Assembly (NCBI GenBank): GCA_027294455.1
Contig: JAPULZ010000068.1
Span: forward strand, 1-64,000
Source of the DNA: Gemmatimonadota bacterium
Lineage (GTDB): Bacteria > Gemmatimonadota > Gemmatimonadetes > Gemmatimonadales > GWC2-71-9
DNA: 64,000 nt
Direction: 5' to 3'
Under the pieces are notes generated by a model. The model made no database searches, was not told the origin of the DNA, and saw only the letters and a program-made list of their open reading frames with translations. This document shows positions 46,532 through 51,813 of the stretch, piece by piece. Each line of letters starts with the position of its first letter. Position 1 is the stretch's first letter. The translations under genes and the position numbers were made by a program.

Positions 46532-47611
46532 TCAATCTCCCAACGAAACCCCGAGCTCCCGCGCCGTACAGATCGTATCCCCGTCGAGCGGCACGAGCTT
46601 CGCCTGTCCCAGCACCACCTCGAGAGACAAGGTTTCCACCTTGGGGGGTTTGTACGCCACCATGTCCCCGAAGCGTCCCGCCGCCACGGCCCGAGTCGCC
46701 TCCGCGCCGAAGCGCAGTGCCAAGAGCCGGTCGAACGTGGTCGGCGTGCCCCCGCGCTGCAGATGCCCCAGGGCCACCGCACGTGTCTCCTTCCCCGTCA
46801 TCTCCGAGATCCACTGCGCGACCTTGTTCCCCATGCCGCCCAGGCGTGCGGAAAAACCCGGGCCAGCCGCCGCGTTGAGGGAGACCTCCCCGGATTTCGG
46901 CGCGGCGCCCTCGGCCACGACCACGATGCTATGGTGGAGTCCCCGCTCCTCCCGCTCGAGGATCTTGGCGCAGACTTTCTCCATCTCGAAAGGGATCTCC
47001 GGAATGAGAACGACGTCGGCGTCGCCGGCCAATCCGGAATTGAGCGCAATCCATCCCGCATTCCGGCCCATCAATTCCACCACCAGCACGCGACGGTGAC
47101 TCGCGGCCGTCGAGCGTACCTTGTCGATGGCATCCGTCGCCGTCGACACCGCCGTGTCGAACCCGAACGTCACGAGCGTTCCGCCGACGTCGTTGTCGAT
47201 CGTCTTCGGAATACCCACGACAGGCAGTCCTTTCTTCCACAGCTCGAACGCGATGTGGAGGGTGCCGTCTCCACCCACGACGATGAGCGCATCGAGCCGG
47301 TGCTCGCGGAACGCTGCCAGCACCTCGTTGGATCGGTCGACCTCCGACCACGAGCCGTCGGCCTCCCGTCGGGGCCACTTGAATGGGTTGCCCCGATTGG
47401 TGGTTCCGAGAATCGTTCCCCCCACATGCGTGATGCCGTACACCTCACGCCGACCCAGGGACACGACATCCGCCTCGCCGAGCAGACCCCCGAAACCTTG
47501 CTCGACGCCGTGCATCTCCCACCCGCGATTAGTTCCCGTCAGCACCACGCTCCGGATGACGGCGTTCAGGCCGGGTGCGTCACCACCCCCGGTACAAATG
47601 GCGACGCGCAT
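46532..47611 (-). CDS. pfkA: 6-phosphofructokinase, group III-like
   Basis: A 359-aa glycolytic kinase that phosphorylates fructose-6-phosphate. ICTGGGDAPGLNAVIR, VVGGDGTL and GIPKTIDNDV are the main motifs, with MGRNAGWIA and HLQRGGTPTTFDRL following. ATP enzymes have Gly in GGDGT; pyrophosphate enzymes usually have Asp there and Lys in PKTIDND. This protein has Gly plus Lys, the mixed signature of group III enzymes such as those in actinobacteria, so the phosphoryl donor is uncertain, most likely ATP. The start ATG lies five bases after the selW stop. Confidence 0.92.
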   Translation of the reverse strand: MRVAICTGGGDAPGLNAVIRSVVLTGTNRGWEMHGVEQGFGGLLGEADVVSLGRREVYGITHVGGTILGTTNRGNPFKWPRREADGSWSEVDRSNEVLAAFREHRLDALIVVGGDGTLHIAFELWKKGLPVVGIPKTIDNDVGGTLVTFGFDTAVSTATDAIDKVRSTAASHRRVLVVELMGRNAGWIALNSGLAGDADVVLIPEIPFEMEKVCAKILEREERGLHHSIVVVAEGAAPKSGEVSLNAAAGPGFSARLGGMGNKVAQWISEMTGKETRAVALGHLQRGGTPTTFDRLLALRFGAEATRAVAAGRFGDMVAYKPPKVETLSLEVVLGQAKLVPLDGDTICTARELGVSLGD

Positions 47612-47616
47612 CAAAC

Positions 47617-47850
47617 TCAGCTCGCCCGATGTTGACGGATGACCTCGAGCACCTCTCCCGGCTCGGCGTGGCGCCCGAGGGATCGCTTCGAGAAAACGAG
47701 ATCTCCGTCGACCACGACCTCGAACAGACCCCCGGACGCCTCCACGAGCTTCACCTCGGTATCCGGGTATTCCTTTTCGACCTCCGCCGCCAAACTGGTG
47801 GCTCTGGGGCCGTAGTCTCAGACGACGCAATATTGGATGCTGACTCGCAT
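47617..47850 (-). CDS. SelW/Rdx-family selenoprotein with in-frame UGA
   Basis: A 77-residue thioredoxin-like redox protein when UGA at 47818-47820 is read as selenocysteine (U). It then begins MRVSIQYCVVUDYGPRATSL, with the family's CxxU redox motif at residues 8-11, PRA after it, and later SGGLFEVVVDGDLVFSK and GRHAEPGEVLEVI, all hallmarks of SelW/SelT/SelH proteins. Frame is intact on both sides of UGA. ATG has GGAGAG just upstream. A SECIS-like hairpin follows UGA. It precedes pfkA by five bases. A conventional gene caller sees no gene here. It requires SelA, SelB, SelC and SelD elsewhere in the genome. Confidence 0.85.
47786..47802 (-). promoter_or_regulatory. Bacterial SECIS-like hairpin in selW
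   Basis: In the mRNA, GCC-A-CCA pairs with UGG-C-GGC (three pairs, one A-C mismatch, three pairs) to leave the loop GUU. The loop begins 22 bases after UGA. This fits the bacterial SECIS rule of a small loop with G in the first two places, about 16-37 bases from UGA, recognised by SelB. Confidence 0.65.
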
Positions 47851-47877
47851 GATCTCTCCGGTGGGAAGAATACGCTA

Positions 47878-47897: not shown

Positions 47898-47978
47898 TAT
47901 CCGTAACCCCAACTGGGACTTGCACATTTGGGGTCGGTGGGCCACATTCTCGCCGCTGTCCCACAGGTAAGAATCTCC

Positions 47979-50126
47979 GTGACGAAAACCTCCAACGTCA
48001 ATGTGGCCCCGTTGATACGGCTGGGAGTCCAGGCGGTGGCGCTGGTTTTTCTCATCGCGGCCGTGGGTGGCCTCGCTGGCAGCATCGACACCCAACAAGG
48101 TAGCTTTGCCGCCGAACTCGTGCTGCTGGTCATGGCGGCTGCGCTGACTCGGCGGTTCGGCTTTGCCCTACCGGGCCAGGGGTTCACTTCCTTGATCATG
48201 GGAGTGGTGTGGGTCGCGCTGTTCAGCCGGGGCTGGCCATTCGCCGTCCTCGTCGCCGGCATTGGAACAGCCACAGGAGATCTCCTGTTCCGGAGACTGG
48301 GCGGCCGGGAGGTTCTCCTGAACATGGGACACCTGGCCACAGCCACGGGACTGGTCGGGGTCCTGTACGGCTGGATCGGCGGCGAGCTCGGGGCCGGGGC
48401 GGTGACGCTCCTCAACCTGGGTCCCCTTTCGGCGGCCATCGTTCTCCTTTCGCTGCTCACGAATACCACCTTCTACCTGGAGCTGGCATCGTCCCGCGGG
48501 TTCGCATGGGTGGATGCCTGGCTGACCCTGAGGTGGGAGGCGGTGATGACGTTGGTCGCGGCCGGCCTGGGCCTGGGATGGCTGGCGGTCGCCACGTCTG
48601 ACGCCTCCGTGATCGAGGGCCTCGTTGCGGGAGGCGCCATGATCGCCGCGACCATGGTCATGCAATACCTCCTGGACAAGGCGATACACGCCGACCACTT
48701 GTTCCTCATACAGAAGCTGGCGGGCACGGTAGCGGCGGACGTGAGCATCGCCCGGAGCTTCGAGCGCCTCCAAGAGGTGACCGCGCGACTCGTTCCCTGG
48801 GAGCACATGGGCTTCGCTCGATATGACGAGGGACGCCATGAGATGGAGCTGATCGCCGATACCGGCACCACCGAACCACTTCGGTTCGACACGAGGTCGG
48901 GCCCCACCGGTCGGGCGGTGGAGACCGGCGCTCCCGTCGTCTCCGGCAAACACGCCGTCGGCGACATGATCCTTCCGGCTGGGGAAACCCCCGGGGCCGA
49001 GATTCTCATCCCCCTGCTTCACGGCGGGCGCCTCGTGGGGCTGTGGAGCGTGCGACACTCGAACAGTGCGATGTACAGCGAGGCGGACGGAGAGCTGTTG
49101 AACAAGCTGGCCCCCCATCTCGGCCTGGTGATCGCGCTGTCGGCCGTGTTGACTCCCATGGCCAACTCGTCGGAGCTCGCCGCCAAGCACGTTCGGGATC
49201 TGGAGTCGGGGTGTCACGCCCTCGGCGCGTCGGCCGAAGGCGCGTCCGACAGCGCCCGCCGGGCAGAGGAGGAGGCTGAGGAGGCTGGGACCAGGCTGGC
49301 CTCGATCGGTCAGACGATCAACCGGCTCCTCGAGGGAATCGCTGAAGCGTCTACAACGGGCCAGGATGTCGGCAACGCCACCCAGGAAGTGGCCTCCGCC
49401 GCCTCCGGGCTCCACGAGTCCAGCTCTCACGCCGTGGACCGATTGGCCCATCTGTCCGAGACGATCCAGGCGAGCGCCGCCGAGGTGGTGCAACTCCGGG
49501 AGGCCGCCAACGAGGTGGAGGGGTTCTCCGAGACCATTGCCACGATCGCCAACCAGACCAATCTGCTAGCCCTCAATGCCACCATCGAAGCGGCACGGGC
49601 AGGCGTCCACGGCCGCGGGTTTGCCGTGGTGGCCGACGAGGTACGGGGACTGGCCGAGGAGAGCGCTCGCGCCGCCCGCAGCATCGGGCGCAGCGCTCAG
49701 AGAACTCGTCGGGTCGTCGATAGCTCCGCGAAACTCATGGAGGAAATCGCGGACCGGCTGGGAGAGCTGTCCCGCAACTCGGTGATGTGGGGCGCAGAAC
49801 TGGACAAAATCGTGGATTCAGCCCGGTCGACTAGCCACCTGGCGGACCGAATGCGTGACCTGCCCCGGGCCAACATGAAGATCGCGACACAGACTCGCGA
49901 GATGCTGGAGCAGGCCCAGCAACTTGCGAGACACGCGGCGGAGGACGCCCGCGCTGTCAAGGAAACGTTGCACGAGCAGCGGCACTCCGTCCGGCAACTC
50001 TCCGACTCGGCTGCCCGGCTCGCCCAGGTGGCGACACAGCTCGAGGAGGGAGCGAGCTTCATTCGCGGGAACGGCTCCGGCGGCACCGGGCCCGCCCGCC
50101 CGGATCCCCGGCCAAAGAATGGGTGA
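47979..50126 (+). CDS. Membrane-GAF-methyl-accepting signalling protein
   Basis: A 715-aa signal transducer. Residues ~8-235 hold seven or eight transmembrane helices with no large periplasmic loop (a MASE-like sensor). A GAF domain follows (~245-410). The last ~280 residues are an MCP signalling coiled coil, with the hairpin tip [20 protein letters not shown] and [25 protein letters not shown]. It should signal to CheA/CheW. GTG 47979 has AGG 11 bases upstream and puts the first helix at the N-terminus; a longer start at 47928 is possible. A TetR-type operator lies upstream. Confidence 0.85.
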
Positions 50127-50226: not shown

Positions 50227-51813
50227 TTGACGACTCCGACAACAAAGAGAGCGGCCACCGTCGCGAATCTCGTGCTCGCGCTGACGGCCATCGCGGCTCC
50301 CGCGGTCGCACAGGCCGGCAAGGTGAAACAAGTGGAGCTCGGTCTATACGGGGTCTTCACGAAGTTCGATAACTCCAACCTCGGCCTCGACGACAAGTTC
50401 GGCGCCGGTGGACGGCTCAGCTACTTCCTTACCCGGACGCTCTCCATCGAAGCATCGGGCGATTTCACCGAAACACAAACGCTGGCGAACAGCGAGACCG
50501 TTCGCGCCACGCGGATGGCGGGAACCATCTTCGCCCACGCGCCCATCTTCGGATCCACCGCCTTTTACGTCGGTGCGGGATACGAGCAGACTTTCTACCG
50601 GTCGTCGCAGGAGTTCAACGACGGCGGAATTCATTTGATCGTCGGGCCGCGCTTGCCCGTCGGCGGACGTGCGGCGTTTCGCCTCGAGGGCCGAGCCACC
50701 TACGTCCCCAGTTCCAACGCGCCGGGCGCTTCCGGAGGTTCGTTCAATATCGGTGCGTCCATCGGCTTGTCGGTGTACGCGTTCGGCGGACCACCGCGGG
50801 ATGCCGACGGCGACGGTGTGGGTAACGTAGACGACAACTGTCCCGATACCCCCCGGGGCGCCGATGTCGATACCGTGGGTTGCCCGAACGACTCGGACAA
50901 CGACTCGGTCCTCGACGGCATCGACGAGTGTCCCGCGACGCCGGTCGGTGCCGACGTGAACGACGCCGGGTGTCCGTCCGACGACGACCTGGACACCGTG
51001 TACAACGGCATCGACATCTGTCCGGATACGCCCGCCGGCGCCCTGGCCGACGAGAACGGCTGCCCGCCCGATTCCGATAGCGACTCGGTCTTCGACGGCA
51101 TCGACCAGTGCCCCGACACCCCCATGGGTGCCGACGTGAACGCACTGGGCTGTCCGTCTGACGAAGACTCGGATCTCGTGTACGACGGCATCGACCAGTG
51201 CGCCGGCACGCCCCCGGGCATGGCCGTGGACGCCATGGGTTGCGCCGCACCGGTGGACTCCGACATGGACGGGGTGTTCGACACCCTCGACGAGTGCCCC
51301 AACACCCCGCCGGGCAGTATCGTGGACGCCCGGGGCTGCCTGCCCGACAGCGACACCGATTTGGATGGGGTGGCGGACCGTCTGGACCGGTGCCCGAGCA
51401 CCCCGCCGGGGACCACCGTGGACAACGTCGGTTGTCCGGTGTTATTCGTTGTAGACGAGGTAACGCAGGAAACGCAGCCGCTGATCCTTCAAGGGGTGAA
51501 CTTCGCCATCGGGCGGTCCATCCTCACCGAAGCGTCCTACGCGGTGCTCAACGTGGTGGCGATGTCGCTGCTCGCGAATCCCGATGTGAGCATCCAGATC
51601 GGAGGCCACACCGACGCGACAGGGTCTCTCTCCACGAACATGAGCCTTTCCCTTGGCCGGGCCGAGGCCGTGCGCGCTTATCTGGCACGCCAAGGTGTCC
51701 CGCTTGGCCAGATGGAAACACGAGGATACGGCCCCGACCGGCCCATCGCCACGAACGCAACTGTGGATGGTCGGTCTCTGAACCGGAGAGTCGAGCTCAC
51801 GAGAATCAACTAG
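50227..51813 (+). CDS. OmpA-family outer-membrane protein with thrombospondin type 3 repeats
   Basis: A 528-aa envelope protein. A signal peptide ends AVAQA. Residues ~32-190 form an eight-stranded-type barrel (VELGLYGVFTKFD ... YVGAGYEQTFY ... SIGLSVYAFGG), ~192-405 seven acidic TSP3 calcium repeats, and ~410-528 an OmpA/MotB domain (GVNFAIGRSILTEASYAVL, GGHTDATGS, GRAEAVRAYLARQGV, NRRVEL) that binds peptidoglycan. Calcium probably stiffens the linker across the periplasm. The start is TTG with AGGAGGT six bases upstream. It is followed by a strong hairpin. Confidence 0.93.
   Translation: MTTPTTKRAATVANLVLALTAIAAPAVAQAGKVKQVELGLYGVFTKFDNSNLGLDDKFGAGGRLSYFLTRTLSIEASGDFTETQTLANSETVRATRMAGTIFAHAPIFGSTAFYVGAGYEQTFYRSSQEFNDGGIHLIVGPRLPVGGRAAFRLEGRATYVPSSNAPGASGGSFNIGASIGLSVYAFGGPPRDADGDGVGNVDDNCPDTPRGADVDTVGCPNDSDNDSVLDGIDECPATPVGADVNDAGCPSDDDLDTVYNGIDICPDTPAGALADENGCPPDSDSDSVFDGIDQCPDTPMGADVNALGCPSDEDSDLVYDGIDQCAGTPPGMAVDAMGCAAPVDSDMDGVFDTLDECPNTPPGSIVDARGCLPDSDTDLDGVADRLDRCPSTPPGTTVDNVGCPVLFVVDEVTQETQPLILQGVNFAIGRSILTEASYAVLNVVAMSLLANPDVSIQIGGHTDATGSLSTNMSLSLGRAEAVRAYLARQGVPLGQMETRGYGPDRPIATNATVDGRSLNRRVELTRIN
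50800..51441 (+). repeat. Seven tandem TSP3 coding repeats of ~90 bases
   Basis: Seven units of about 30 codons, each with a D-x-D-x-D-x-V-x-x-x-x-D acidic loop and a C-P-x-T-P segment ending G-C-P. The fifth has extra residues (CAAPVDS). The DNA copies have diverged, so they are old, but enough identity remains to invite recombination. Confidence 0.9.

Follow-up and report, generated by a model that had tools for sequence, protein, structure and literature searches.

The window, by which is meant the whole 64,000-nucleotide stretch of DNA analysed, carries on its minus strand a short gene of the selW type, read through a single in-frame UGA, and directly downstream of it a gene for a phosphofructokinase. 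The elements of the locus are as follows:

47617..47850, minus strand: selW-like selenoprotein gene, 77 codons plus a TGA stop, from translation with UGA as selenocysteine (Sec) and from profile matches
47818..47820, minus strand: in-frame UGA, Sec codon 11, present as TGA in 92/92 relatives and 80/80 wider relatives
47818..47829, minus strand: CxxU redox motif, Cys8-Val-Val-Sec11, C8 and U11 being the same in all 92 homologues
47854..47859, minus strand: ribosome-binding site GGAGAG, read from the sequence, 4-9 nt 5' of the ATG
47617..47619, minus strand: terminal stop, again TGA, from translation
47785..47803, minus strand: SECIS hairpin, with a GUU loop at 47795-47793, 22 nt after the UGA, from pairing conservation and covariation
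46532..47611, minus strand: pfkA, ATP-dependent 6-phosphofructokinase, Pfam PFK 339 bits, its ATG 5 nt past the selW stop

The frame opens with the ATG at 47850 and closes with the TGA at 47617, the UGA at codon 11 being the sole interruption of its 77 codons. Translated with this UGA as Sec, it yields the protein MRVSIQYCVVUDYGPRATSLAAEVEKEYPDTEVKLVEASGGLFEVVVDGDLVFSKRSLGRHAEPGEVLEVIRQHRAS. An earlier note on this DNA had proposed the 77-codon frame read through the UGA at 47818-47820, with CxxU, PRA and FEVVVDG elements and a ribosome-binding site before the ATG. Translation of the minus strand bears out the frame and all three elements, and the GGAGAG lies at 47859-47854; every feature described in that note stands, while the strand, which it left unstated, is the minus one. 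A scan for sigma-70 promoters at the selW locus, uninformative for Gemmatimonadota, gave no match.

Judged from the sequences, the UGA frame is no chance event, because UGA stands at codon 11 in all 92 homologues found among 121 related genomes, Cys8 being likewise kept. The best 80 relatives from a collection of 84,980 species have TGA at the Sec codon without exception (80/80); these are mostly Gemmatimonadota, which assigns the window to this phylum, and the remainder are bins that carry the names Chloroflexi or Anaerolineae, Actinobacteria, Armatimonadota, Acidobacteria, Pirellulaceae, Paenibacillaceae and Fibrobacter. In addition, a sample of the phylum (298 genomes) gave 150 matches, 148 of them with an in-frame TGA, so that Gemmatimonadota which have SelW at all have, as a rule, the Sec type. 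On the 3' side of the UGA, comparison with the nearest relative gave a pS of 0.70 against a pN of 0.13, which indicates purifying selection; synonymous change far exceeds non-synonymous change after the UGA, and the part downstream of it is therefore translated. These data bear on the possibility of a pseudogene or a sequencing error, in which a single-base change to TGA would have disrupted a Cys-type SelW (TGC or TGT). The two codons are indeed one base away, and a TGC form exists in the genome G177, but the same TGA recurs throughout the 92 and the 80 genomes, which come from different assemblies, and it is followed by codons under purifying selection and by a conserved hairpin, leaving this explanation with practically no probability. 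As a separate observation, the genome G034 holds a second, weak match of 33% identity with three TGA codons.

Membership of the product in the Rdx / SelT-SelW-SelH family is supported by profile searches and by fold prediction, Sec being entered as Cys in all profile, fold and PDB-match runs. The read-through protein scored 69.6 bits with Pfam Rdx (PF10262; cut-off 22.6), 91.5 with NCBIfam NF041051 (SelTWH_Campy; curated cut-off 88) and 63.6 with TIGR02174 (cut-off 34.2), and a profile built from 20 homologues matched solved SelW-family chains, mouse SelW included. AlphaFold2, given the window protein together with 43 homologues, predicted with a pLDDT of 95.6 a strand at residues 2-8 and a helix at 14-27, that is, a thioredoxin-like fold with the CxxU between the first strand and the first helix, and the best PDB match of this fold was a SelW-related protein, 2fa8 (TM 0.85). 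The full-length Rdx/SelW protein that the earlier note had recognised is thereby upheld by three profile cut-offs as well as by a fold match. The solved SelW-related structures 2fa8, 3dex and 2obk have the fold in common with the window protein at a TM of about 0.85, and mouse SelW (2npb) at 0.68, although identity to the solved structures of the family is just 23-38%. From the CxxU motif and the predicted fold, a redox role may be assigned to the 77-residue product, which is probably a small thiol/selenol oxidoreductase.

The hairpin with a GUU loop 22 nt past the UGA had been pointed out as well; its position proved exact, and the loop, GUU or GUC, is conserved among the homologues. In the window it reads GCC-a-CCA-GUU-UGG-c-GGC. 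Published criteria for bacterial SECIS elements comprise an apical loop of 3-9 nt on an upper stem of 4-16 bp, a G within the first two loop positions, a UGA-to-loop spacing of 16-37 nt and a minimum free energy of -7.5 kcal/mol or lower (PMC13188914). The window hairpin, with a loop of 3 nt on 6 pairs, the loop bases GUU, a spacing of 22 nt and -8.0 kcal/mol, lies within these bounds on all four counts, its energy when folded alone being only just past the limit. Since Rfam gave no SECIS-family match at the hairpin region, the hairpin was tested by covariation, on a gap-free alignment of the 51 bases from the UGA in 92 genes. The consensus has a stem of eight pairs and a three-base loop, with pairs kept in 95.9% of the cells over the 92 genes. 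Compensatory double changes occur in 42 cells as compared with 10 in shuffles, and the pairing is lost when the partner positions are shifted by 1-3 bases.

A hairpin at this place could also be a mere by-product of conserved codons (RA-A/T-G/S-LAAE) and no SECIS element, and because the hairpin is itself coding sequence, synonymous recoding was chosen as the null. The amino acids are in fact conserved there, and the window copy taken by itself, which is among the weaker ones, does not differ significantly from its synonymous null (p 0.1 for pairs, 0.21 for energy); it keeps 6 of the 8 consensus pairs, with mismatches A-G at the base and A-C in the middle. Over the set of 92 genes, in contrast, the hairpin surpasses the null both in pairs (7.67 of 8 versus 5.66) and in energy (-13.6 versus -8.6 kcal/mol), and the loop starts with GU in 92% of the homologues when 8% would be expected. 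Moreover, the loop-forming codon 19 is GGT in 50/50 cases of Gly and AGT in 35/35 cases of Ser, whereas later in the same genes GGT makes up about 10% of the Gly codons and AGT about 3% of the Ser codons, and codons within the hairpin show on average half the synonymous difference of the remaining codons. Taken together, these figures make the by-product explanation extremely unlikely, and the 92 aligned sequences, in which SECIS element and coding sequence overlap, offer a clear-cut example of a reading frame under constraint at the RNA level. Other loop codons were seen at a few loci, namely AGG (Arg), with a loop starting GG and not GU, in L067, L090, L093, L095 and L110, GCG in L054 and CGG in L063. 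In the window copy a rival fold has the greater stability as long as the first six or so nucleotides after the UGA can pair, and loses out once at least 6 nt after the UGA are removed; these first nucleotides would presumably sit inside a ribosome standing at the UGA, which would disfavour the rival fold.

The draft assembly of the source genome comprises 254 contigs, with a completeness of 94% and an estimated contamination of 6%. The earlier note had proposed a search of it for selA, selB, selC and selD, and all four are present. SelA scored 482 bits and SelB 324 bits, the latter with the GTPase and the SelB winged-helix domains, while tRNA-Sec (locus L114) scored 69.8 bits, the Rfam gathering score being 47, and its anticodon UCA (TCA in DNA) is readable in the sequence. 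On the same stretch ARAGORN reported no tRNA despite this Rfam score, which is taken as a miss of the tool. SelD (L113, contig C149; 360 bits) and the alpha subunit of formate dehydrogenase, FdhA (L196, contig C237; 725 bits), were examined as selenoprotein families of this genome, and each has one in-frame TGA, that of SelD in the context SHGAGUACK. The TGA of FdhA is followed by a hairpin whose GGUCU loop, on comparison with the E. coli sequence, proved to be the same as in E. coli fdhF. The selD of this genome is itself a selenoprotein gene, with a GUC-loop hairpin about 33 nt downstream of its in-frame TGA.

Since the source genome has no fewer than three genes in which an in-frame UGA is read through, a genome-wide assignment of UGA to Trp, Gly or Cys, by misreading or by a recoded tRNA, might be considered instead of Sec. 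Nevertheless, UGA is also the normal stop of selW and of 56 out of 90 homologues, each of the three read-through genes falls in an established selenoprotein family, the genome holds the Sec machinery in full, and without such machinery the residue is Cys, as in G177, or the gene is absent; a general recoding is accordingly highly improbable. In fact, among 18 genomes lacking both selC and selD, SelW was absent from 16 (Fisher p about 2e-10, kinship being ignored). Two genomes, G020 and G092, carry the UGA form yet have neither selC nor selD over the cut-off, and tRNA-Sec, when rechecked in both, again gave nothing over the cut-off. As these two fragmented assemblies both carry selB, assembly gaps are the likeliest reason.

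G177, a complete genome (one contig, 100% complete), constitutes the single clear Sec-to-Cys difference, and serves as a natural control for selenoprotein evolution. Its SelW orthologue (L198, contig C1:2896497-2898706) reads CVGCNYQPRAA..., with TGC exactly at the Sec codon and pfkA downstream, and a search of this genome found no SelD and no tRNA-Sec over the cut-off. Its loop codon is GCG in place of GGT or AGT, and, as judged by eye from the sequence, the stem has lost the pairing of the consensus. The comparison of homologues for UGC in place of UGA, likewise suggested in the earlier note, has thus found its case, and the assignment of the UGA to Sec made there agrees with the UGA of the 92 and 80 relatives, with the full machinery and with this TGC orthologue. 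The other match without TGA, in G136, is only distantly related and of a different type, with a CTGCRW motif.

The locus is almost certainly a selenocysteine-encoding selW-like gene of the Rdx family in Gemmatimonadota, the first in a probable selW-pfkA operon, Sec insertion being inferred. Ribosomes would start at the ATG at 47850. Once the UGA of codon 11 has reached the A site, Sec-tRNA(Sec), made by SelA and SelD, would be delivered by SelB, itself bound to the GUU-loop hairpin just downstream. Translation would then run past codon 11 until it meets the UGA that serves as the normal terminal stop, giving a product of thioredoxin-like fold in which Cys8 and Sec11 of the CxxU could form a Cys-Sec bond. 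The steps involving SelA, SelB, SelC, SelD and the SECIS element are those established in E. coli, and would apply here by homology.

A PFK gene lies directly downstream of selW at 78 of the 92 homologous loci, which represent three families of the order (loci L001-L111), often at a spacing of a few bases or with an overlap. At 17 loci examined in other phyla no PFK was found near selW, and no paper was found connecting SelW and PFK. selW is probably the first gene of a minus-strand operon with pfkA, and a functional link between the two is put forward as a hypothesis. A more specific proposal would make selW a selenium-dependent control element for pfkA: when Sec-tRNA is scarce, ribosomes would stop at the UGA, some 200 nt short of the start of pfkA, translational coupling would be lost and less phosphofructokinase made, while with selenium read-through would bring ribosomes to pfkA. 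The gap of 5 nt and the adjacency at most of the loci are compatible with this proposal, which is nonetheless unlikely, and the two genes are still neighbours in G177, whose selW no longer has the UGA. The persistence of the pair without the UGA therefore favours a link to the SelW protein rather than to the UGA, and the conserved selW-pfkA neighbourhood provides a testable hint at what SelW may be linked with in this group.

The Gemmatimonadota gene is a clear and well-supported new member of a protein family known before. SelW-like selenoproteins were described in bacteria no later than 2005 (PMC1088965), rank among the most abundant selenoproteins of the sea (PMC2398784) and, in organisms that use Sec, were reported to occur very seldom in a Cys form (PMC1794560). 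The SelW-like sets of the Sargasso Sea and the GOS (PMC1088965, PMC2398784, PMC1794560) resemble the present gene in the CxxU, the Rdx family and a SECIS element directly after the UGA, as well as in the near absence of Cys forms among Sec users, and differ from it in phylum and in the pfkA adjacency seen in this order. In the Epsilonproteobacteria, SelW genes have been missed by annotation (PMC4607533). The SelW of Campylobacterales (NF041051; PMC4607533), above whose family cut-off the window protein scores and whose genes were likewise missed, belongs to another phylum, while the hairpin found here has a G+C-rich stem and an apex of the GGUCU or AGUUU type. The present results confirm a gene of the kind which annotation tends to miss. 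As regards the SECIS element of E. coli fdhF, roughly half of the 92 selW hairpins from Gemmatimonadota share its GGUCU apex, as does the FdhA of the source genome, whereas in selW the distance from the UGA to the apex is greater by one codon and the apex of the window copy is AGUUU. In the literature searched no paper was found joining SelW, selenoprotein and Gemmatimonadota, a result which by itself leaves absence from the wider literature unproven.

On the other side of the locus, a divergent chemoreceptor-like gene with GAF and MCP signalling domains (47928-50126, plus strand) adjoins the start of selW. Beyond it, at 50227-51813 on the plus strand, a frame of 528 residues shows by eye many D-rich repeats of the DSDSDSVFDGIDQCPDTP type and an OmpA-like C-terminus.
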